From assembly GCA_022446905.1 (NCBI GenBank), contig JAKVBT010000005.1, positions 531,239 to 595,238 of the forward strand: a stretch of DNA of 64,000 bases, read 5' to 3'. Below, one piece after another: positions 3,914 to 17,139 of the stretch. Within the stretch, counting starts at the first letter, position 1; every line of letters starts with the position of its first letter. A program made the translations under genes and the position numbers. The notes beneath the pieces were generated by a model that had not been told where the DNA came from, did no database searches, and saw only the letters and a program-made list of their open reading frames with translations. This DNA comes from Phycisphaerales bacterium. GTDB lineage: Bacteria; Planctomycetota; Phycisphaerae; Phycisphaerales; SM1A02.

Positions 3914-4091
3914 GGGTCTGATTCGAGCAGAAGCGGGATCCAAAGGGTGCTTTGAGGGGTATAGAACCTTGATTGTGGTGCTCAAGGCTTGGCATTAGCT
4001 GATCGGAGAGTACCTTGATTGCATTGTGTCAAACAACTGGGATTACCCAGGGAGCAGGATCGCCCGTCACTCGGGCCGGAGAGGATTAACG

Positions 4092-6533
4092 ATGAACATC
4101 TTTGGGACCATGACAGTCACCACCGCAATCATTGCGAGCGTTGCTGGAGCCGGTGAACTTGACGCCAACCTGGCTGATCAGATGGATCGAGCTGCAGAAG
4201 GAGAGCGGATCAGTGCGCTGATCTATCTCAACCATCAGGTCGATGCCAAGCAACTTGAACGTGACTTGATTGCAGATCGCTCAACACGTCATGATCGTCA
4301 TGTGGCTGTCGTCACTGCCTTGCAAGATGCTGCCGACTTTGGACAGCAGGATGTGCTTGCTTGGCTGGACACACTGCCCGGGAAATCTGTATCTGATGTG
4401 CAGGCCTATTGGATCTCAAGCATTATTAGTCTCGATGCCACCGCCGATGTATTAGAGGCGGCAGCAGAGCGGACTGATGTGGCGCTGGTGGCATTTGACT
4501 ATCCCATTGAGTTGACCGCACCAACCGCAGGTGACGGTCAGCCTGACACAACGACCCGCTCTGGCGGTCCTGAGGCTGGTGTTGTTGCTGTTCGCGCCCC
4601 GGAAGTGTGGGCCATGGGATACACCGGTCAAAATGTCGTGGTGTCCAATATGGATACCGGCGTTGAGGGCAATCATGAAGCACTTGCCAGTCGGTGGCGT
4701 GGCCTCAATCCGTTGTACTCGGGCAACCCACAGTGGGCGTTCTATGACCCATACACCGGAAACAACAACTTCCCCTTTGATGGTGGTTCTCACGGGACCC
4801 ACTGCATGGGTAGTGTGGTTGGTGGCGCCCCTGGTCTGCAGATCGGTGTGGCTCCAGATTCAGAATGGATTGCGGCAGCATCCATTGATCGTGGCGGAGG
4901 CATTCCGCAGACCGTGGCCGACGCCATCTTGTCTTTTCAATGGCTCGCCAATCCAGATGGCAATCCGCTCACCAGTTTTGATGTCCCGCACACCAACTCC
5001 AATTCATGGGGATTGGTGACAGCGCACGGATACCCCGAGTGTGATCAGACATTCTGGTCGTTCATCGACAACTGCGAAGCAGCTGGTGTGATTGTTTTGT
5101 TCTCAGCTGGCAATGAAGGCAGTTCTGGACTTCGTCGTCCTGGCGACCGTGCCCTTGATGACTTCCGCAACATGGCTGTGGCCGCAACAGACCCCTATAA
5201 CGGCAACTCCATCGCGAGTTTCTCCTCACGTGGTCCCACGAATTGCACGGCCAGCGGAACTTCGGCGATCAAGCCTGATATCGCAGCACCTGGAGTGAAT
5301 ACCTATTCGAGCGTCCCTGGTGGATACTCGTCCTATAGCGGTACCTCCATGGCTTCCCCGCACGTCAATGGTGTCATGGCACTCATGCTGTCAGCCAACC
5401 CTGATCTGACAAGTGACCAGGTCAAGACCATCATTTATGACACCGCGACGGATCTTGGATCCAGCGGCAAGGACAATGACTACGGGCATGGACTGATTGA
5501 TGCGGTTGACTGTGTTGAGGCAGCACTGGAAACAGTCAGCCTGACCATTTCATTCCCCAGTGGTCGTCCTGAATGGGTTGATCCGCTCGGTGGGACACTC
5601 ATCGAGATTGCATGCGGCGGCAACGTCGCTGAGGATCCAAATACGGTCACGTTGCACTGGAGTGCCGATGGCGTTTCTGATGAAGTCCAGATGACACCCT
5701 ATTTGGTCGGATATCGAGGAGCATTGCCCTCATTCAGTTGTGGTGCCGAGGTCAGTTACTGGATCTCGGTAGAGAGCGTCGAGGGCGATTACATCACCAG
5801 TCCATATAGCGCTCCAAGCGATACCTACCTTGCTGAGGCGTGGAGTGGCGAGAACATTTCCTTTGAAGATGACTTCAATAGTGATCTGGGCTGGACTGTG
5901 GACGCAGGAGCTGGCACAGGCAACTGGGTCAGGGCAACGCCCTCTGGAAATGGTGCACGCTGTGACGCCCCGTCTGATCAGGATGGCTCTGGTCTTTGTT
6001 TCGTATCAGGAAATGGTGCTGACGAAGACGTCGATGATGGTTCCACAACGCTGACTAGCCCAGTCATGGATGCCACGGACGGTGGCGTGCTTTCGTACGC
6101 CCGTTGGTATAGCAACGGCAGTAATTGTGCTGGTGCTGATCCCTTGAATGATGTCTTCGTGGTGGAAATCAGCGATGATGGTGGCCTGACCTGGGGCAAC
6201 TTGGAAACCGTGGGTCCTGGCGGTGATGAAGTCAATGGCGGCTGGTACGTATTGGAATGGGATGTGGATGACATCCCAGGATTCACACCCACCGATAGCG
6301 TCCGTGTTCGCTTCACCGTGTCCGATCTCAATGATGGCTCCATTGTTGAGGCGGCTGTGGATGCAGTCAGTATTTCAGGCAAGTTCTGCGACGAACTTCC
6401 TTGTGAAGGAGATGTCACGGGCGATGGCGTAGTAGATGTCAATGATGTCCTTGCTGCAGTCGCCGGCTTTGGCACTGACTACAGTGTCGATGACATTCTT
6501 CTAATTCTGAAGAACTTCGGCTCCACCTGCTGA
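4092..6533 (+). CDS. Secreted S8 (subtilisin-like) protease with dockerin-like tail
   Basis: An exported serine endopeptidase of 813 residues. The ATG at 4092 follows GGAGAGGATT; an upstream GTG at 4026 would bury the signal peptide. Residues 1-20 form a signal ending in VAGAGE. The propeptide runs to about 160. The triad is Asp188 in SNMDTG, His234 in SHGTHC and Ser419 in GTSMASPH. A C-terminal region of beta-sandwich character (530-765) follows, then a final 45 residues with one EF-hand-like loop (DVTGDGVVDVNDV) and a second half-motif ending in Cys. Related tails end two other exoproteins nearby (13218-14183 and 14434-17139). Its probable job is extracellular protein degradation. Confidence 0.93.
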   Translation: MNIFGTMTVTTAIIASVAGAGELDANLADQMDRAAEGERISALIYLNHQVDAKQLERDLIADRSTRHDRHVAVVTALQDAADFGQQDVLAWLDTLPGKSVSDVQAYWISSIISLDATADVLEAAAERTDVALVAFDYPIELTAPTAGDGQPDTTTRSGGPEAGVVAVRAPEVWAMGYTGQNVVVSNMDTGVEGNHEALASRWRGLNPLYSGNPQWAFYDPYTGNNNFPFDGGSHGTHCMGSVVGGAPGLQIGVAPDSEWIAAASIDRGGGIPQTVADAILSFQWLANPDGNPLTSFDVPHTNSNSWGLVTAHGYPECDQTFWSFIDNCEAAGVIVLFSAGNEGSSGLRRPGDRALDDFRNMAVAATDPYNGNSIASFSSRGPTNCTASGTSAIKPDIAAPGVNTYSSVPGGYSSYSGTSMASPHVNGVMALMLSANPDLTSDQVKTIIYDTATDLGSSGKDNDYGHGLIDAVDCVEAALETVSLTISFPSGRPEWVDPLGGTLIEIACGGNVAEDPNTVTLHWSADGVSDEVQMTPYLVGYRGALPSFSCGAEVSYWISVESVEGDYITSPYSAPSDTYLAEAWSGENISFEDDFNSDLGWTVDAGAGTGNWVRATPSGNGARCDAPSDQDGSGLCFVSGNGADEDVDDGSTTLTSPVMDATDGGVLSYARWYSNGSNCAGADPLNDVFVVEISDDGGLTWGNLETVGPGGDEVNGGWYVLEWDVDDIPGFTPTDSVRVRFTVSDLNDGSIVEAAVDAVSISGKFCDELPCEGDVTGDGVVDVNDVLAAVAGFGTDYSVDDILLILKNFGSTC

Positions 6534-7635: not shown

Positions 7636-7675
7636 AACATCTTTCGGTGATCGCCACGGCATCAAGTGCATCCGC

Positions 7676-7681
7676 TACCGT
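7676..7681 (+). promoter_or_regulatory. Putative -10 box of the permease gene
   Basis: TACCGT, 7 nt before the ATG at 7689, suggesting a leaderless transcript that begins at the start codon. Confidence 0.4.
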
Positions 7682-7688
7682 GACCACT

Positions 7689-9146
7689 ATGCACGGCAAT
7701 CAGCAGCGACCGCATCGTGCGATCTCCCGTTTTGTTCTGGCGATGATGACCACCGCTGTTGTGGTCGGTCTGGAAGGACTGCCAGAGGTGGGATCATTTG
7801 GATTGCCGCTGGTTGTCTACTACGCTTTATTCACACTCATCTTCTTTCTGCCGGTGGGATTGGTCTCGGCCGAGTTGGGCGTCGGGTGGCCTCATGATGG
7901 CGGTGTATATCGTTGGATCCGAGAGGCCATGGGGCCACGCTGGGCTTTCCTTGGCATCTGGTGCCAGTGGATGCAGATTCTCATCTGGTATCCGACCGTC
8001 TTAGCAGTATGCGCGGTGTCCTTGGCCTATGCCATCGATCCGCAACTTCGCGATGTCGGTTGGTTTGTGTTGTTGATTAGTCTCGGTGTGTTCTGGGGGG
8101 CAACCATCATCAACTTCAAGGGCATTCACGCAAGCGGCGTATTGACCACAATCTTCCTCTATGCAGGCACGCTCTTACCAGTGGGTCTTGCGATTGTCCT
8201 AGCCGTGTGGTGGCTTGGAGATGGGCGGACATCGGCAATTGAATTGTCATGGTCTGCCATGGTGCCGCGCATCGATTCCATCGGTGAGGTTGTCGGGGTC
8301 TGCGCCATTTTCTCTTTCCTCTCTGGACTTGAAGTCAATGCTGTGCACTTTCGCCACGTGCGTGATCCGCAGCGATCTATTCCCATTGCTTTGCTGATTA
8401 GCGGGGCATTGGTGTTGATCATTTCAGTACTTGGAGCTCTCAGTGTGGCGGTGTTGGTCCCGGTGCATGACATCGATCTTGCAGCAGGCACGCTGCAGGT
8501 CTTTGCGGTTGTTCTAGATCCGATGGGTCTGCGCTGGCTGGTTCCTGTGCTGGCAGTACTCGCGTTGGCCGGTATGGTTGGGCACATCATGGTGTGGGTC
8601 ATCGGCCCGACCGAATCGCTTCGTGTTGCTGCCGATGACGGTTTGATTCCACCAAGTTTTCAGCGCACTACTGCCGGCGGTGCGCCTCGCAATGTCATGC
8701 TGCTGCAAGCAGTCATCGTTTCAGTCATCTGTCTGCTGATGCTGCTTGTCGATCTGAATCGCGTGTTTTACTTTCTGACCATTGCCTCAGCCCAGATCTA
8801 CCTCATCATGTATGTGCTGATGTTTCTTTCGGTCATCATCCTGCGCTATCGCCGCCCTGATGTAGTCAGAGCGTTTGTGATCCCCGGAGGCCGGCCTGGG
8901 CTTTGGCTTGTGGCAGGTGGTGGGGCGCTAGCCTGTGTGGCAGGCATCCTGCTCATGTTCTGGCCGCCGAGCACTGAGGACATGGCTATGGATGCAATTT
9001 GGTTCACAGTGCCACTGGTGCTGACCTTTGTCGTGCTGGTGTCGGCACCCTTAGTGTTGTACGTCTTCCGTGATCCTTCATGGCAGGGCAAGCCGGGGAT
9101 GCCTGGGGCAAGCGATACCGACACGATCTGGAAGCGATCGGACTGA
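7689..9146 (+). CDS. APC-superfamily amino acid permease/antiporter
   Basis: A 485-residue integral membrane protein with about 12 hydrophobic helices. Its opening helix, with VGLEGLPEVGSFGLP, and the AELGVGWPHDGGVYRWI segment match the amino acid-polyamine-organocation superfamily and the glutamate:GABA-antiporter-like branch. It would move amino acids or amines across the inner membrane; the substrate cannot be read from the sequence. The ATG at 7689 is preferred over an upstream GTG at 7647 because of the TACCGT box 7 nt ahead. The sulfotransferase-like gene begins 4 nt after its stop, so the two, and the aminotransferase after them, are probably one operon. Confidence 0.88.
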   Translation: MHGNQQRPHRAISRFVLAMMTTAVVVGLEGLPEVGSFGLPLVVYYALFTLIFFLPVGLVSAELGVGWPHDGGVYRWIREAMGPRWAFLGIWCQWMQILIWYPTVLAVCAVSLAYAIDPQLRDVGWFVLLISLGVFWGATIINFKGIHASGVLTTIFLYAGTLLPVGLAIVLAVWWLGDGRTSAIELSWSAMVPRIDSIGEVVGVCAIFSFLSGLEVNAVHFRHVRDPQRSIPIALLISGALVLIISVLGALSVAVLVPVHDIDLAAGTLQVFAVVLDPMGLRWLVPVLAVLALAGMVGHIMVWVIGPTESLRVAADDGLIPPSFQRTTAGGAPRNVMLLQAVIVSVICLLMLLVDLNRVFYFLTIASAQIYLIMYVLMFLSVIILRYRRPDVVRAFVIPGGRPGLWLVAGGGALACVAGILLMFWPPSTEDMAMDAIWFTVPLVLTFVVLVSAPLVLYVFRDPSWQGKPGMPGASDTDTIWKRSD

Positions 9147-9149
9147 CCA

Positions 9150-9884
9150 ATGCCCTGCACCCGTATCGCTATGTGGTCTGGGCCACGCAATATCTCCACT
9201 GCGATGATGCGATCTTGGGAGCACCGAGCAGACGCCCAAGTGTGGGATGAACCGCTGTATCCGCGATGGCTTTCCCGCAACAGCATCGCTCATCCAGGGC
9301 GTGAGGAAGTGCTGCAGGCGCATCAGGAAGATCTGGATGCTGAAGATTTGAAGCGGCGGCTGGCAGGTTCGCCTCCTGAGTCATCCATCTTCTATCAAAA
9401 GCACATGGCCCATCACTTGTGCCCTGACACTGTTGGTGATTGGATGGCAAAGTGCAGGCATGCGTTTTTGGTCCGCCGGCCCGATCGAGTGCTGTGTTCA
9501 TTGGCTGCGCGGTATCCAGAGGCTGGCCTTGAAGACACCGGTCTGCCCCAGCAGGTGGGCCTGCTGAACCTGCTTGATTCGATGGGTCTGCCGGCGCCAC
9601 CGGTGATTGATGCGGATGATGTCTTGTCTGCCCCCGAGTCGATGCTCCGAGCCCTCTGCGATGCGTTACAGGTGCCCTGGGATCGGGCGATGCTCTCGTG
9701 GCCGCCAGGGCCACGCGTATCGGACGGTGCGTGGGCCCCGTGGTGGTATGACAAGGTGGAAACATCAACGGGATTTGGTCCACCGCGTGATGACACGCCG
9801 GAGGTGCCTCAGGCTCAGCAGACTGTGCTTGCGGAGTGTCAACAGTTGTACGATCAACTTTGCGAGTTTCGCATTCGACTTTGA
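9150..9884 (+). CDS. Sulfotransferase-like protein paired with aminotransferase
   Basis: A 244-residue protein of the P-loop sulfotransferase type. The N terminus has MWSGPRNISTAMMRSW, which matches the 5'-phosphosulfate binding loop that holds PAPS. WDEPLYPRWL and FLVRRPDRVLCSLAARYP (residues ~108-125) match the 3'-phosphate loop region. It is 4 nt after the permease and 10 nt before the class IV aminotransferase homologue. From memory of the family, plants carry the two domains fused in branched-chain-aminotransferase-like proteins, so the adjacency here suggests a joint function. The acceptor is unknown, and sulfonation has not been shown. Confidence 0.75.
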   Translation: MPCTRIAMWSGPRNISTAMMRSWEHRADAQVWDEPLYPRWLSRNSIAHPGREEVLQAHQEDLDAEDLKRRLAGSPPESSIFYQKHMAHHLCPDTVGDWMAKCRHAFLVRRPDRVLCSLAARYPEAGLEDTGLPQQVGLLNLLDSMGLPAPPVIDADDVLSAPESMLRALCDALQVPWDRAMLSWPPGPRVSDGAWAPWWYDKVETSTGFGPPRDDTPEVPQAQQTVLAECQQLYDQLCEFRIRL

Positions 9885-9894
9885 GGAAATTCCC

Positions 9895-10794
9895 ATGCTC
9901 CAGCAATATGACCAGCGTAATGCGGACATTTTGATCAACATCAATGGCGATCTTGTCCATCGCAACCAAGCTGGTGTCTCGCCCTTTGATTCGCTGGTGC
10001 AGGGAGGCGACGGCGTATGGGAAGGCTTGCGGCTCTACCAGAACGGCATCTTCCGGCTTGAAGCTCATCTTGATCGTCTACACAAGTCAGCCAAGGCAAT
10101 TGCGATCGAGGATGTGCCGAGCCATCAAAAGTTGAAGCATGAAATCGCTCGTACGCTTGATGCCAACGACATGACTGACGGTGTGCATATTCGCTTGACG
10201 CTGTCTCGAGGCCTCAAGATCACCAGCGGCATGGATCCTCGACTAAACCAATCAGGGCCAACGCTTATCGTCTTGGCTGAATACAAAGCTCCGGTGTATG
10301 ACCGTGCTGGTCTTTCATTGGCCACCAGCAGCATCCGCCGCTTTCGAGCCGACATGCTTGATCCAGTCATTCATCACAACAATCTACTGCAGTCGATTAT
10401 GGCCAAGATTGAAGCCAATGCCGCTGGTGCCGATGATGCACTGATGCTTGATGATCGTGGTTTTATTGCTGAAACCAATGCCACTCATCTCTTCTTCGTT
10501 CATGGCGGAGTAGTGTCTACCAGCCGCGTGCTGGCCTGCCCGGATGGGATTACTCGCAGCGTGGTCATCAACTTGTGCCAGAACAACGGCATTGCCCTCA
10601 CAGTTCGCGATATCGGTTTGGCTGAGGCCTATCAGGCAGATGAGTGTTTCTGTACTGGGACCATGGGCGAATTGGCTAGCGTGACCAAGATTGATGGGCG
10701 CAGTATTGGCGATGGTGGGGTCGGCCCGGTGACAAGGCAGTTGCAGGAGTTGTTTGCTGCCGAGGTGAGAGCATGCTGTGAACCGGTGCTCTGA
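9895..10794 (+). CDS. Class IV aminotransferase homologue lacking the catalytic lysine
   Basis: A 299-residue protein with the PLP fold-type IV layout of branched-chain and D-amino acid aminotransferases: SPFDSLVQGGDGVWEG at 29-44, ADDALMLDDRGFIAETNATHLFFV at about 179-202, and a GTMGEL phosphate-site segment near 255. Where D-amino acid aminotransferase has IKSLNLL with the Schiff-base lysine, this protein reads IHHNNLL, so the lysine is His160 (codon CAT at 10372-10374). The following AKIEA aligns without gaps, which makes misalignment unlikely. The start at 9895 follows GAGGAAAT. It probably works with the sulfotransferase-like gene upstream. Transamination is doubtful. Confidence 0.82.
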   Translation: MLQQYDQRNADILININGDLVHRNQAGVSPFDSLVQGGDGVWEGLRLYQNGIFRLEAHLDRLHKSAKAIAIEDVPSHQKLKHEIARTLDANDMTDGVHIRLTLSRGLKITSGMDPRLNQSGPTLIVLAEYKAPVYDRAGLSLATSSIRRFRADMLDPVIHHNNLLQSIMAKIEANAAGADDALMLDDRGFIAETNATHLFFVHGGVVSTSRVLACPDGITRSVVINLCQNNGIALTVRDIGLAEAYQADECFCTGTMGELASVTKIDGRSIGDGGVGPVTRQLQELFAAEVRACCEPVL

Positions 10795-10845: not shown

Positions 10846-11841
10846 ATGTCCAGACCAGTCACTTTGTTCTCCGGCCAATGGGCCGATCTGCCGTTTGACC
10901 AGATGGTCGAATTGGCTGCCAATCTTGGATTTGATGGATTGGAATTGCCTTGTTGGGGTGATCACTTTGATGTCACAGCAGCAATTGACGACTCGTCCTA
11001 TTGCGACAATAGGCATTCAAAGTTGGCTCAGCATGGCCTCAAGTGCTGGGCGATTTCCAATCATCTTGTCGGGCAGGCTGTTTGTGATCGAATTGATTCG
11101 CGGCATCATCAGATACTGCCTGAGCATGTCTGGGGACATGGAGATGCGGAGGGGGTTCGAGCCCGCGCTGCTGAGGAAATGATGAACACGGCTCGCGCTG
11201 CTGCAGCGCTTGGCGTACCGGTGGTCAATGGGTTTACGGGCTCCTCGATCTGGCCTGATTTGTACTTCTTTCCTCCTACCTCTGCGGAGCATGTCAAGCA
11301 GGGCTACGAAGATTTTGCAGCTCGGTGGGGTCCGATTCTTGATGTCTTTGCGGAAGTGGGCGTCAAATTTGCGCTTGAAGTTCACCCTTCCGAAATTGCC
11401 TACGACACAGTGACCGCCGAGGCTGCTCTTGAGGCAGTAGATCATCATCCAGCATTTGGTTTCAACTTTGACCCGAGTCATCTTGTGTGGCAGGGGGTCG
11501 ATCCAGCCCGTTTCATTGATGTGTTTCCAGATCGAATCTTTCATTGTCATATGAAAGATGTGAAGGTGAATCTCAATGGAGACGGAGGCATCTTGGGCTC
11601 GCATCTGCAGTTTGGAGATCCACGGCGAGGCTGGGACTTTGTCAGCGTTGGCCGTGGGGATGTTGACTTCGATGCCATTATTCGGGCCTTGAATCGTGCA
11701 GGTTACGAGGGGCCACTCTCAGTCGAATGGGAAGACAGTGGTATGGATCGTTGCCAGGGGGCCCGTGAGAGTTGTCAGTATGTGCGCGACATTGACATCA
11801 CCCCGCCGGGGCGTGGTTTTGAAGACGCCTTTGGTGATTGA
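10846..11841 (+). CDS. Sugar phosphate isomerase/epimerase (TIM barrel)
   Basis: A 331-residue protein of the xylose isomerase-like TIM-barrel family (AP endonuclease 2 fold). It begins with [27 protein letters not shown], the usual first strand and helix. Metal ligands probably include Glu in [10 protein letters not shown], Asp in [12 protein letters not shown], His in [10 protein letters not shown] and Glu in [14 protein letters not shown] lies about 11 nt before the ATG. Planctomycetes have many such enzymes next to ThuA or DUF1080 genes, as here, pointing to catabolism of keto-sugars or inositol-like compounds. The exact substrate is not evident. Confidence 0.87.
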
Positions 11842-11862: not shown

Positions 11863-13212
11863 ATGTTGACGCTCTGTCTTGGCGCGGTTTTATCTTTGCC
11901 ATCTTCGCCAATTGATGTGGTGGTGTTTACTCGAACTGAGGGCTTTAGTCACGGCAATATTGCCCGTGGAGTTGAGGTGCTGCAGGAGATGGCCCAGGGG
12001 CGGTGGAATCTCAAAGTCACAGATGATTCTGCTGATCTTGGCTCGGACAATCTTGAGGAAGTCGAGGTCGTGGTCTTCTTCAACACGACGATGGATGTGC
12101 TTGACAAACCTGAAGAAGCGAGTTTTCAGCGCTGGCTTGAGGCAGGTGGTGGTTGGGTGGGTATTCATGCGGCTGCTGATACAGAGTATGAATGGCCTTT
12201 CTATGGCGCTTTGCTCGGAGGCGCTTACTTTGTCGATCATCCTCATATCCAGGAGGCCACGATTCGGCTCGAGGACCCAAGTCATCCATCAGTGCGCCAC
12301 CTTCTGACCAACAATACAAACGAGAAGCCGCCAGTCTGGACTCGAACGGACGAGTGGTTCAATTACAGAGTGTCGCCTCGCGCCGCAGTTCATGTTGTGG
12401 CATCGCTCGATGAGTCAACCTATGAAGGAGGTTCGATGGGCGATGACCATCCCATCGTCTGGACGACGGCCCCAGGCAAAGGTGCGGGGATCTATACCGG
12501 GCTTGGGCATACCAATGAAAGTTGGGATGAGCCGGCCTTTCGTTCGCACATTGCAGGAGCCATTCAGTGGGCATCGTCAGGTGGTTGGATTCCGCTTGGC
12601 AATCTTGCTGGGGGTGGCTGGGCAGAACATCGGGGCTGGTCTGATGTTGGGTCTGCAACTGCCATAGACCGAAAGTTAAAGACCACACCAGGCACTGGAG
12701 TGCTGGTCAATGGCATAGGTGGTCATGCTGGCGAATTGCTCAGCGATGCGACCTTTGGAGATTGTGATCTTCACATTGAATTCATGGTCCCCGCTGGAAG
12801 TAACTCGGGTGTGTATATCCAGGGGCGGTACGAGATTCAGATTCTTGACAGTCATGGAGTGGAGTCGCCAGCCTCCAGTGATTGCGGGGGCATCTACGAG
12901 CGGTGGGATGAGGAGCGAACGCCAAAGGGCTGGCAGGGGCATTCACCGACAGTGAATGCTGCAGCGCTGCCCGGGGTCTGGCAAAGCTATGACATCCGCT
13001 TTCGCGCTCCACGTTTCGATGCACAGGGGCGAAAAGTATCCAATGCCGTTATGGAGCGGGTAATGCACAACGGTCAACTCATTCACGAGGATGTCGAATT
13101 GTTCGGACCAACGCGGGGGGGGCTTGAGCCTGAGGCAATGACCGGTCCGATACGTCTTCAGGGAGACCACGGCCCAGTGGCCTATCGCAATATCCGGATC
13201 CGTCGTTTGTAG
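11863..13212 (+). CDS. Secreted ThuA domain fused to DUF1080 (3-keto-disaccharide hydrolase)
   Basis: A 449-residue two-domain protein with a short hydrophobic N terminus likely acting as a signal peptide. Residues ~18-235 form a ThuA-like trehalose-utilisation domain (VVVFTRTEGFSHGN, GWVGIHAAADTEYEWPFY, GKGAGIYTGLGH). Residues ~245-449 form a DUF1080 lectin-like domain (SNSGVYIQGRYEIQILDS, CGGIYERW, GPIRLQGDHGPVAYRNIRIR). DUF1080 members include hydrolases that cleave 3-keto-glycosides, and ThuA proteins relate to 3-keto-disaccharide metabolism, so the fusion fits one pathway. It begins 21 nt after the sugar isomerase gene and is probably coexpressed with it. Confidence 0.88.
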   Translation: MLTLCLGAVLSLPSSPIDVVVFTRTEGFSHGNIARGVEVLQEMAQGRWNLKVTDDSADLGSDNLEEVEVVVFFNTTMDVLDKPEEASFQRWLEAGGGWVGIHAAADTEYEWPFYGALLGGAYFVDHPHIQEATIRLEDPSHPSVRHLLTNNTNEKPPVWTRTDEWFNYRVSPRAAVHVVASLDESTYEGGSMGDDHPIVWTTAPGKGAGIYTGLGHTNESWDEPAFRSHIAGAIQWASSGGWIPLGNLAGGGWAEHRGWSDVGSATAIDRKLKTTPGTGVLVNGIGGHAGELLSDATFGDCDLHIEFMVPAGSNSGVYIQGRYEIQILDSHGVESPASSDCGGIYERWDEERTPKGWQGHSPTVNAAALPGVWQSYDIRFRAPRFDAQGRKVSNAVMERVMHNGQLIHEDVELFGPTRGGLEPEAMTGPIRLQGDHGPVAYRNIRIRRL

Positions 13213-13217
13213 CGTGC

Positions 13218-14183
13218 TCAGTCGCCGCCGTCGCAAGTGCCCCAGTCAGCAAGCACAATGAGAAGGTCATCTGTGCTGACTACCGAATCACCATTGATAT
13301 CCTCGACACAGACGCAGCCGCCCCAAGCACTGACGATGGCGAGTATGTCGTCTACTGACACCATGCCGTCAGCTGTGACATCACTCGAGCAGACTGGGCA
13401 CAGTTCATTGCCACCTTGGTCGTTCCATGTGCCAAGGATGTGGTCTGGGATGTTCAGGCAGAGTGATGTATCAGTCAGCGAGGAGTTTGAGCAGTCGCAG
13501 GTTTTGGCGATACCTCCACCTCGGATACCGGCGGAGTTGGCAGAAATATCGCAATTCTCAATCAGGCCATTGCTGTCATTGCCATAGGCAATGCCGCCGC
13601 CAAAGACGCCACACTCATTTTGAGTAATGACACAGTCCATGATGCTGGGGTAGCTGAAATGGTGGATGCGAAAGCCACCGCCATCCAGTTCGGCGGTGTT
13701 GCCAGATACAAGGACAGTGGTGAACACTGGACTGCCCTCAAAAACACTGACGCCGCCCCCGATGAAAGCAGCGTTGCCAGTGATGATGCACTGGTCGATT
13801 ATGGGTGAAGTTTGCTTGATGAAAAGGCCGCCGCCACAGGACACGCCTTCGATATCGATGCCGCCATTGCCCCCCGTGAGTGTGAACCCGCGCAGCGTGG
13901 TGCTGGGGCCCTCCCCGGTGGCGATCACCACTGCGGTTGGGAATCCTGTGGCATCGATCGTGGTCGCTTCTGGGCCATCAGTGCTCTCTAGGGTGATGGT
14001 TCGGCCTCTGAAATTGACCCACCCGTTCCAGACCCCTGGGGCTACCAGAACTCGATCGCCATCGACGGCCATATTGACCGCTTCTTGAATAGAGGGGGCG
14101 TCTCCGGGCACCATCAAATCCGCACCAGAAGCGGTAGAGACCACAGTCAGGCCGGCCAAAATGAGTTTTGAGGGCATTTTCAC
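13218..14183 (-). CDS. Secreted right-handed beta-helix protein with dockerin-like tail
   Basis: A 321-residue exported protein. Residues 1-20 are a signal peptide ending near ASGA. SIQEAVNMAVDGDRVLVAPGVW is the typical opening of a pectate-lyase-like parallel beta-helix, followed by repeating rungs (LRGFTLTGG, IIDQCIITGN, IMDCVITQN, LIENCDISAN) with GGG turns. The last ~60 residues hold two EF-hand-like loops, DVTADGMVSVDDILAI and DINGDSVVSTDDLLIV, each followed by a WG motif. No catalytic residues can be assigned; such proteins can bind or cleave polysaccharides or act as surface proteins. It converges with the ThuA-DUF1080 gene, 5 nt apart. Confidence 0.88.
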   Translation of the reverse strand: MKMPSKLILAGLTVVSTASGADLMVPGDAPSIQEAVNMAVDGDRVLVAPGVWNGWVNFRGRTITLESTDGPEATTIDATGFPTAVVIATGEGPSTTLRGFTLTGGNGGIDIEGVSCGGGLFIKQTSPIIDQCIITGNAAFIGGGVSVFEGSPVFTTVLVSGNTAELDGGGFRIHHFSYPSIMDCVITQNECGVFGGGIAYGNDSNGLIENCDISANSAGIRGGGIAKTCDCSNSSLTDTSLCLNIPDHILGTWNDQGGNELCPVCSSDVTADGMVSVDDILAIVSAWGGCVCVEDINGDSVVSTDDLLIVLADWGTCDGGD

Positions 14184-14433
14184 GGGTTCGGCTCCTAGTC
14201 AGATATTGCTGACCGCCCTCAGTATGGCCTGATGGGGTGGTGTTTGGCAAGGAAACTCAGGCAGAAGAATCGTAGATATTGAGTCAGAATTGGGCATGTT
14301 CATCGAAACCGGGCTTGCTGGTGGGTCGAAGAGTTGTACAGTTGAGAGTCATGATCAGCATCTGTTGACTGTTGTGTATGACCCAATGGGTTCAGAACCA
14401 CTGGCCGTCATGGCCTCCGAAGGAGAGATCAGC

Positions 14434-17139
14434 GTGAGAGAGCGAACCATGTCCGTGTTCCTAACCGGGGCCGTTGTTCTGGCAGGAGCCACTATGCCAG
14501 CCCTAGCCAAGGATGAGTCTTTCGTGCAGACATCCGTGTTGTCAGATGACTTGGATGCCTCAGTGATTGAATTCTCAATTGAACGACCAGATTTTGGAAC
14601 GGTTCGGATCGATGGAAGTCCATGGACGACCGTCACTCTTGGCAATGAGAGTATCCCTCGTGAAGCTGGCGAGCCAGCCTTGCCGGACGTTCGCCGGTCA
14701 GTCATGATTGGTCCAGATGCAGCAGTTGAAGCTCGATTTGTTGGCGGTGACTATCAAGATTATCAAGGCATTCAGATGGCCCCTCATAAGGGCATCCTCT
14801 TGCGCACGGTCAATCCCCACGATGTGCCCTATACATTCGGCAAGGTCTATGACAGTGAAGGCTTTTGGCCACGTGAAGTAGTCACGATTGGCGATCCTTA
14901 CATCATGCGCAATACGCGTGGTGCAGTCGTACAGGTCAATGCCATTCAGTGGAACCCAGCCACTGACACACTCCGCGTCTGGAGCAACGTCAAGGTTGCG
15001 GTGGATCGTGTTGGGACAGCCACTGAGAATGTGCTGACGCAACGCTCCTTGACTACGCAGCGTGATAATGCTGCATGGGAAACCTTGTACGGCCGACGCT
15101 ATGTGAATTATCCCGATGAGCGTCGCTATGACCCACTGGATAACTCAGGAGACATGCTGATCATCTGCTATGACCAGTGGCTATCGAATATCCAGCCATT
15201 GGCTGATCACAAGAACAGCATCGGAATCAATACAACAGTGGTTCCGGTCTCGAGCATTGGCAATACTCCAAGTGCCATCTCCAGTTACATCAATGGCATG
15301 TACCTGAATCAAAGTCTTTCTTATGTACTTCTGGTCGGTGATGCGGCCCATATTTCGGCCTATACAGCTGCCGACAATGGTTTGTCTGATCCGACCTACT
15401 CAAAGATGACCGCGGACGACTACCCGGACATCTTTGTTGCTCGAATCAGCGCTGAAACAGCCGCACACGTAGATACGCAGGTTGAGCGCGTCATTGCCTA
15501 TGAGAATGATGCATGGACCGAGCGTCCGGAATACTTCCGCGCAGCAGGTATTGCTTCAACGCAAGGGCCTGGTGATGACAATGAGTATGACCATGAACAC
15601 GTGGCCAACATCATGACTGATCTCGAGGAGTATGGATTCACGTACACCACCGTCATCAGTGATAGTGGCGGCAGTGTGGCGCAGGGCGTTGCAGCGGTCA
15701 ATGATGGTCTTGGCGCTATTGCCTACTGCGGCCATGGCTCGACCACCTGCTGGGGCAATGGCGCTCCGCTTTGCAATAATGACGTTAACGGTCTGACTAA
15801 TACGCACATGCTGCCCTGGATCATGTCGGTCGCATGTGTGTGTGGTGAATACAACGCCGGTGATTGCTTCGCAGAAACATGGATGCGCGCTACCCACAAC
15901 GGGATGCCCGCGGGTTCTATTGGTCACTATGCCTCAACAATCAATCAATCATGGGCCCCGCCGATGTGTGCTGAGGATGAGACCTTCGATTGCTTTGTGG
16001 CAGAGCAATACGTCACACTTGGCGTACTCTTCTATGCTGGCTCATGCCAGATGATGGACGAGTACGGCTCTGGCGGTGTCGACATGTTTGATACCTGGAC
16101 TCACTTCGGTGAGCCATCCACGGTTGTAGTTGGTACAGCTGCTCCGCCGACAGGCATGCGTGTCTCCGGCAGTGGTTGGTTGGCAGAGGGCCCCAACGGC
16201 GGTCCATTTGAGCCTGTGCAGGGAACTTTCACGGTGAAGAACCATGAGGATTCCATGATCAATGTCTCTGTGTCCACTAGTGGCGGCAGTTGGGTCACGG
16301 TGTATCCGACCAACTTCAATCTGCTCGCTGGTGCCGAGGTTGAAGTCCAAGCAACCATCAATGTCGAGGCTGATAGTCTGGCAAACGGGACACATACCAT
16401 CGCGGTGGCATTCAGGAACAATACGACCTTTGATGGTGATGCCGACAAGGACATCACGTTGACCGTTGGTGTGCCTATTCCAGTCCTCGATTGGAATATG
16501 GACGAACATCCAGGTTGGACCATGGATGGCGAGTGGGCGTGGGGCGCTCCAACCGGTGGTGGTGGAGACAGCTTTGGCAATGCGGATCCCAACTCAGGGT
16601 CAATCGGCAATGCGGCTGTTGGTATTAACCTCGACGGCGACTACAGCTTGGCTGTGGGTGGCCCATATCACCTCACAACTGGGGCCATCGATTGTTCAAA
16701 CTATGCTCAAACGAGTCTGATGTTCGATCGCTGGCTAAATTGCGACTACCAGCCCTACGTTGAGAACTACATCGAAGTCAGCAATGACCTCGCAAACTGG
16801 ACCCGTGTATGGGAAAACTCCAGCAGCGCTGAAACTGCTGATAGTTCTTGGTCCACTGTCGAGTACGACATTTCCTCCATCGCTGATGGCCAACCAGCCG
16901 TGTATGTGCGTTGGGGGCATGCAGTGACCGACTTTGCCTGGGCCTATTCTGGCTGGAATCTTGACGAGATCAAAATCAAGGCCGTTGATAGTGGATCGAA
17001 TCCACCATGTGACGGCGACCTCAATGGTGATGGGGTGGTTGGAGTCGATGACATTCTTGAGGCCGTTGGTGGTTTCGGTGACATGTACGACGTCAACACC
17101 ATCCTTGAGGTCTTGGAGAATTTTGGTACTGATTGCTGA
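14434..17139 (+). CDS. Gingipain-type (C25) cysteine protease with dockerin-like tail
   Basis: A 901-residue exported peptidase. I take the GTG at 14434 because AGGAGAG lies 8-14 nt upstream; it yields MRERTMSVFLTGAVVLAG, a proper signal peptide (an internal ATG lies at 14449). The catalytic His is in AIAYCGHGS (~434) and the Cys in SVACVCGEYN (~468), matching gingipain's His/Cys dyad. An N-terminal propeptide-like region precedes it, and Ig-like and beta-sandwich segments follow. The tail (last ~45 residues) has an EF-hand-like loop DLNGDGVVGVDDI and ends in Cys, like the subtilase. It likely degrades external protein. Confidence 0.9.
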   Translation: MRERTMSVFLTGAVVLAGATMPALAKDESFVQTSVLSDDLDASVIEFSIERPDFGTVRIDGSPWTTVTLGNESIPREAGEPALPDVRRSVMIGPDAAVEARFVGGDYQDYQGIQMAPHKGILLRTVNPHDVPYTFGKVYDSEGFWPREVVTIGDPYIMRNTRGAVVQVNAIQWNPATDTLRVWSNVKVAVDRVGTATENVLTQRSLTTQRDNAAWETLYGRRYVNYPDERRYDPLDNSGDMLIICYDQWLSNIQPLADHKNSIGINTTVVPVSSIGNTPSAISSYINGMYLNQSLSYVLLVGDAAHISAYTAADNGLSDPTYSKMTADDYPDIFVARISAETAAHVDTQVERVIAYENDAWTERPEYFRAAGIASTQGPGDDNEYDHEHVANIMTDLEEYGFTYTTVISDSGGSVAQGVAAVNDGLGAIAYCGHGSTTCWGNGAPLCNNDVNGLTNTHMLPWIMSVACVCGEYNAGDCFAETWMRATHNGMPAGSIGHYASTINQSWAPPMCAEDETFDCFVAEQYVTLGVLFYAGSCQMMDEYGSGGVDMFDTWTHFGEPSTVVVGTAAPPTGMRVSGSGWLAEGPNGGPFEPVQGTFTVKNHEDSMINVSVSTSGGSWVTVYPTNFNLLAGAEVEVQATINVEADSLANGTHTIAVAFRNNTTFDGDADKDITLTVGVPIPVLDWNMDEHPGWTMDGEWAWGAPTGGGGDSFGNADPNSGSIGNAAVGINLDGDYSLAVGGPYHLTTGAIDCSNYAQTSLMFDRWLNCDYQPYVENYIEVSNDLANWTRVWENSSSAETADSSWSTVEYDISSIADGQPAVYVRWGHAVTDFAWAYSGWNLDEIKIKAVDSGSNPPCDGDLNGDGVVGVDDILEAVGGFGDMYDVNTILEVLENFGTDC

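Follow-up and report, generated by a model that had tools for sequence, protein, structure and literature searches.

A sulfotransferase-family gene paired with a class IV aminotransferase homologue lacking the catalytic lysine in Planctomycetota

Within the clade of class IV aminotransferase homologues treated here, members without the PLP lysine are already known from one deposited structure, that of an aminotransferase-like protein from Variovorax paradoxus (PDB 7z79), and from its N174K mutant (9j32). More conventional relatives are the class IV branched-chain aminotransferases (BCATs; PDB 5mqz, PRK08320), which carry the lysine in a KSLNY-type motif. Replacement of this lysine by histidine has a precedent in two PMP-dependent enzymes with a conserved chemistry, the sugar dehydratases ColD and E1. 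Among sulfotransferases (STs) of solved structure, CurM and OLS (4gbm and 4gox) alone are related in sequence to the ST profile discussed here; they are domains of polyketide synthases that sulfonate a beta-hydroxyl and thereby turn it into a leaving group. In plants, proteins described as 'branched-chain-amino-acid aminotransferase-like' have an N-terminal ST-like domain.

The locus described here lies in a window of 64,000 nucleotides (the whole stretch of DNA analysed) and places both kinds of protein side by side (Table 1). The first-pass annotation had noted an ST-like gene 10 nt ahead of an aminotransferase homologue, and the open reading frames bear this out; the downstream gene begins with ATG at 9895, preceded by the ribosome-site-like sequence GAGGAA. 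The permease that had been noted ahead of the pair is also there, but its conservation is limited to close relatives. When the GTDB genome collection was searched with a profile, 571 relatives of the aminotransferase-like protein were confirmed and the best 80 retrieved; among these 80 loci the permease lies near the pair in five, apart from the close relatives, the TIM barrel in seven, and none of the other neighbours is conserved either. Outside close relatives, permease and TIM barrel were thus dropped as components of the system. Neither an Rfam element nor a sigma-70-like promoter was found between 7 and 12 kb of the window. As the host genome encodes a separate BCAT homologue with a normal KSLNY lysine, the aminotransferase-like gene is not the cell's sole member of this fold.

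Table 1. Coordinates of the gene pair, its immediate neighbours and residues discussed in the text (positions in the window unless a locus is named)
Feature	Position	Strand	Remarks
Amino-acid permease (AA_permease_2)	7647..9146	+	PF13520; ends 3 nt ahead of ST; local partner only
Sulfotransferase (ST), Sulfotransfer_5 family (P0001)	9150..9884	+	244 aa; PF19798, 157 bits, E 6e-46
ST, 5' phosphosulfate-binding-type loop SGPRNISTA, residues 10-18	9177..9203	+	Arg13, Ser16, Thr17 in 56/56
ST, Asp33-Glu34-Pro35	9246..9254	+	56/56; Glu34 candidate catalytic base, role inferred by analogy
ST, KHMAHH motif, Lys84 ... His89	9399..9416	+	Lys84 57/58, His89 58/58
ST, 3' phosphate-binding-type stretch Arg109-x-Pro111 ... 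Ser117	9474..9500	+	all three 58/58
Class IV aminotransferase-like protein (P0002), PLP lysine missing	9895..10794	+	299 aa; PF01063, 151 bits, E 6e-44
Arg61, PLP phosphate-binding position	10075..10077	+	81/81, also in Lys-bearing homologues; role from family
Lys108	10216..10218	+	His branch 81/81, Asn branch 11/11, Lys-bearing 0/9 (Gly there)
His160 codon (CAT), Schiff-base lysine position	10372..10374	+	His in 81/81 orthologues
Asn163 codon (N of KSxN in Lys-bearing relatives)	10381..10383	+	Asn 81/81
Glu193, pyridine N1 position	10471..10473	+	81/81; Asn branch has Thr/Ser
Thr220, phosphate-binding position	10552..10554	+	81/81
Thr256, phosphate-binding position	10660..10662	+	81/81
Xylose-isomerase-like TIM barrel	10846..11841	+	PF01261; starts 51 nt past aminotransferase-like gene; local neighbour only
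ST and Lys-less protein in one open frame	L185 1578-3194; L186 934-2550 (-); L187 1398-3014 (-)		three planctomycete genomes

The aminotransferase-like protein belongs to the class IV fold, both by its PF01063 match and by structural comparison with BCATs (Foldseek probability 1.00), and this fold type IV scaffold sets it apart from ColD and E1, which share the Lys to His change but are of fold type I, act on sugar nucleotides and have no ST. At the expected PLP lysine it reads DPVIHHNNLLQSIMAKIEA, in which IHHNN represents residues 159-163, and His160 aligns without a gap with the lysine of KSLNY in Lys-bearing paralogues and in PDB 5mqz. The earlier reading that the PLP lysine had become His160, followed by a second histidine, therefore stands, although the two differ in constancy: His160 is found in all of the best 80 of 571 relatives, or 81/81 with the window protein, whereas residue 161 is His in 69 and Ser in 12 of these and residue 162 is variable. 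Within the motif, only His160 and Asn163 are thus strict. Histidine also occupies the lysine position in every site-covering orthologue in 40 related genomes. The 80 records are labelled Planctomycetota, Verrucomicrobia, Gemmatimonadetes, Acidobacteria, Proteobacteria and others, bearing in mind that labels of metagenome bins can err. Invariance across phyla rules out sequencing error or decay as the source of His160. As the PLP phosphate and N1 residues (Arg61, Glu193, Thr220 and Thr256) are each equally invariant, the site is under selection; judged by this conservation, the lysine-less active site is preserved rather than decayed, and the predicted PLP cradle of the fold is intact apart from the lysine. 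Class IV BCATs share the fold and the phosphate and N1 residues (243 bits to PRK08320), and differ in having Lys, Tyr and Gly where the window protein has His160, His98 and Lys108, respectively. None of the class IV NCBIfam models listed gives the window protein a score that reaches its curated cut-off.

In a phylogenetic tree, the His-bearing proteins and a branch with Asn at the same position grouped together, apart from the Lys-bearing BCATs sampled (support 100/100), although closer Lys-bearing relatives may exist. Within this Lys-less clade, the His branch, including a divergent member (L192), and the Asn branch were each supported at 100/99. The Asn branch includes 7z79, so that lysine loss in the clade is not new in itself. 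Foldseek likewise placed 9j32 and 7z79 first among the structural matches to the window protein as modelled by AlphaFold2 (pLDDT 85.6, pTM 0.85). Trp42, His98, Lys108, Glu129, Asn195 and Thr197 set the Lys-less clade as a whole apart from its Lys-bearing relatives; of these, Lys108, Trp42, His98 and Asn195 are common to 7z79 and the window protein. Unlike the window protein, 7z79 has Asn for His, and the N1-binding Glu193 is replaced by Thr or Ser, as throughout its branch; with His160, Glu193 and a separate position in the tree, the window protein is not of the 7z79 type. The divergent member mentioned above (L192 1222-2244, minus strand) sits on a long tree branch and reads RSHDNNQ, with His at the lysine position and Lys in place of Arg61. 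Plasmid relatives lie beside amino-acid ABC transporters or other genes and have no ST, whereas planctomycete members of the Asn branch do pair with one. The plasmid and proteobacterial homologues examined belonged to the Asn branch and stood beside varied transporters, and they were set aside as a clue to function.

The residues that distinguish the clade bear on two other explanations of the missing lysine. Lys108, present throughout the His and Asn branches and absent from the Lys-bearing homologues (Table 1), could have taken over the Schiff base, in which case the protein would be a conventional transaminase. This is quite improbable, since the residue lies on a loop after the strand bearing the substrate-carboxylate residues, in a lower-confidence region of the model, and since the construction of an N174K mutant of 7z79 (9j32) suggests that the wild type has no lysine at the expected place. 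Alternatively, the fold may no longer use PLP and instead bind another phosphorylated or sulfated ligand, with the phosphate site and Lys108 recruited for this purpose. The pocket region has gained a positive residue, which would suit such a ligand, and loss of both the lysine and the N1-binding Glu in the sister Asn branch suggests a site drifting away from PLP. Retention of Glu193, which in this fold is specific to the pyridine nitrogen, in 81/81 proteins of the His branch nevertheless makes a change of ligand distinctly unlikely there.

The upstream protein belongs to a recognised ST family, PF19798, and both nucleotide-binding elements, the 5' loop (PRxxST) and the 3' stretch (RxP...S), are invariant in the 56-58 STs aligned. 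Glu34 and His89 are invariant as well and are candidates for the catalytic base. A profile of the ST orthologues matched CurM (4gbm, E 1.4e-6) and OLS (4gox, E 4.8e-6), a remote likeness at about 1e-6 that covers the C-terminal half only. An APS kinase in the host's own genome (233.7 bits) could supply the PAPS donor. Based on the retained motifs, the profile match and this kinase, the ST looks active as a PAPS sulfotransferase. Other STs of the same family, at 29-31% identity, occur in biosynthetic clusters, namely on a cyanobacterial plasmid and in a Streptomyces NRPS cluster (L200); unlike the window ST, neither has a Lys-less aminotransferase partner. The plasmid gene (L199 7989-9917, Dolichospermum sp.) lies beside an APS kinase gene (cysC). 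No ST of this family was found in phages.

That the ST and the aminotransferase homologue form a conserved pair, as the first-pass annotation proposed, is supported in Planctomycetota by co-occurrence, adjacency and fusion. Across 392 Planctomycetota genomes, the ST was found in 82 and the His protein in 77, and all 77 genomes with the His protein also had the ST. Only 5 of the 315 genomes without the His protein contained the ST; four of these have an Asn-branch protein beside it and the fifth (L130) is broken by a contig end. Of the 77 planctomycete pairs, 54 have the ST upstream in the same orientation at a distance of at most 200 nt, six more have it within 3.5 kb, and 17 are unlinked. Beyond this phylum, 60 of the 80 loci (the best 80 of 571, from records labelled as several phyla) have an ST within 2 kb at the same locus; a genome-wide search for 19 of the remaining loci gave a strong ST elsewhere in eight, a weak match (E 4e-5) in one and none in ten.

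In three genomes of one genus (G271, G290 and G384), ST and Lys-less protein share a single open frame, in which some ten residues link the two domains, the domain order being the same as in the plant proteins. AlphaFold2 modelled both domains of the 539-aa fusion with high confidence (mean pLDDT 89.0); with a pTM of 0.63 and a weak linker, no domain interface or arrangement is established by this model. Pairs of the Asn branch show the opposite of the two gene orders, with the ST downstream, and since the ST is of the same family, this suggests that the pairing was selected more than once. At the site, the planctomycete proteins of the Asn branch (L180-L184) read LNTHSKHN or LNSLSKHN, and four of the five adjoin an ST. 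Three observations ruled out chance adjacency: the co-occurrence (Fisher p 2e-76, uncorrected for phylogeny), families whose members have both genes or neither, and the fusions. Taken together, co-occurrence, adjacency and fusions make it likely that ST and Lys-less protein share a function. Two independent enzymes of the same pathway could simply be encoded in a common operon, with the Lys-less protein responsible for an unrelated step, and both the 17 unlinked planctomycete pairs and the Gemmatimonadota with a His protein and no ST, one lineage of which has it downstream of thrB-thrC, would agree with this. Perfect co-occurrence in Planctomycetota, adjacency and single-chain fusion, however, render such independence very improbable.

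Gemmatimonadota represent an exception to the conserved pairing. Among 200 genomes of this phylum, 29 encode the His protein and six of these have the ST, always adjacent, but no ST match was found in the other 23, which include one closed chromosome. The ST is evidently not an obligatory partner everywhere, and the Lys-less protein must be able to act either without it or with an unrecognised substitute. In many genomes of one lineage (L217-L236, L048, L051 and L071) the gene for the His protein lies downstream of thrB-thrC in the same orientation, often at a distance of about 40-130 nt, with no ST. A link to the threonine pathway was not adopted, as the region is syntenic as a whole and other Gemmatimonadota have different neighbours. 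The occurrence of the Lys-less gene alone in many Gemmatimonadota could also mean that its product is not a catalyst but senses PLP/PMP or an amino acid, or acts as a scaffold, regulating the ST or something else where the ST is absent. Such a protein could arise by loss of the catalytic lysine with the cofactor residues retained, and ST co-occurrence and fusion would fit a regulatory subunit. A strictly invariant, polar His160, combined with the new invariant polar residues Lys108, His98 and Asn195 and a near-invariant Thr197, exceeds the usual needs of ligand binding, however, and a regulator of the ST only would fit poorly with a Lys-less protein that stands without one. A sensor or scaffold therefore seems rather unlikely.

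We tentatively favour a catalytic unit, in which an active PAPS ST is joined by a fold-type IV protein that would still bind PLP or PMP, non-covalently, with His160 as acid/base in place of the Schiff-base lysine. With this substitution and a non-covalent cofactor, the protein would not be a transaminase of the normal kind. A small compound derived from an amino acid would most likely be its target. The ST would sulfonate a hydroxyl or an amino group of this compound with PAPS as the donor, and the Lys-less protein would act on either the substrate or the product through a PMP/PLP adduct, for example by deprotonation or elimination, as fold type I enzymes with His in place of Lys do; the order of the steps and the type of substrate are guesses. 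Precedents are the PMP-dependent sugar dehydratases of fold type I for the histidine and CurM for sulfate as a leaving group. Perhaps both activities, PAPS sulfonation and lysine-free PLP/PMP chemistry, even meet on the same substrate in a new kind of coupled enzyme, be it separate or fused, in bacteria and possibly in plants, so that the sulfate ester serves as the leaving group for a His160-driven elimination; such coupling we regard as unlikely.

In the open-licence papers searched, no paper was found on the ST/Lys-less pair, on 7z79, on two plant loci or on the ColD precedent, PF19798 appeared in lists only, and no description was found of an invariant His branch with an intact cradle, of its near-perfect partnership with PF19798, of the reversed pairing in the Asn branch or of the bacterial fusions. 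Absence from literature of this scope is weak evidence of novelty; the pair itself points to an undescribed two-part enzyme. Hundreds of bacterial genomes contain homologues (571 confirmed relatives, not necessarily all of the Lys-less clade), annotated as class IV or branched-chain aminotransferases, yet all close orthologues inspected lack the lysine that defines such enzymes. If the Lys-less proteins bind PLP or PMP and work, lysine-independent B6 chemistry would extend to fold type IV and be tied to sulfonation; if not, a large set of 'transaminase' annotations would be wrong. With natural fusions and a solved relative at hand, the question can be tested directly.

Elsewhere in the window, a ThuA domain is fused to a 3-keto-disaccharide hydrolase domain (11863-13212; PF06283 and PF06439). 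Three further genes (4026-6533, 13218-14183 and 14290-17139) encode large predicted exported proteins with dockerin-like repeats at the end (GDVTGDGVVDVNDVL... and similar), one of which appears subtilisin-like by eye.
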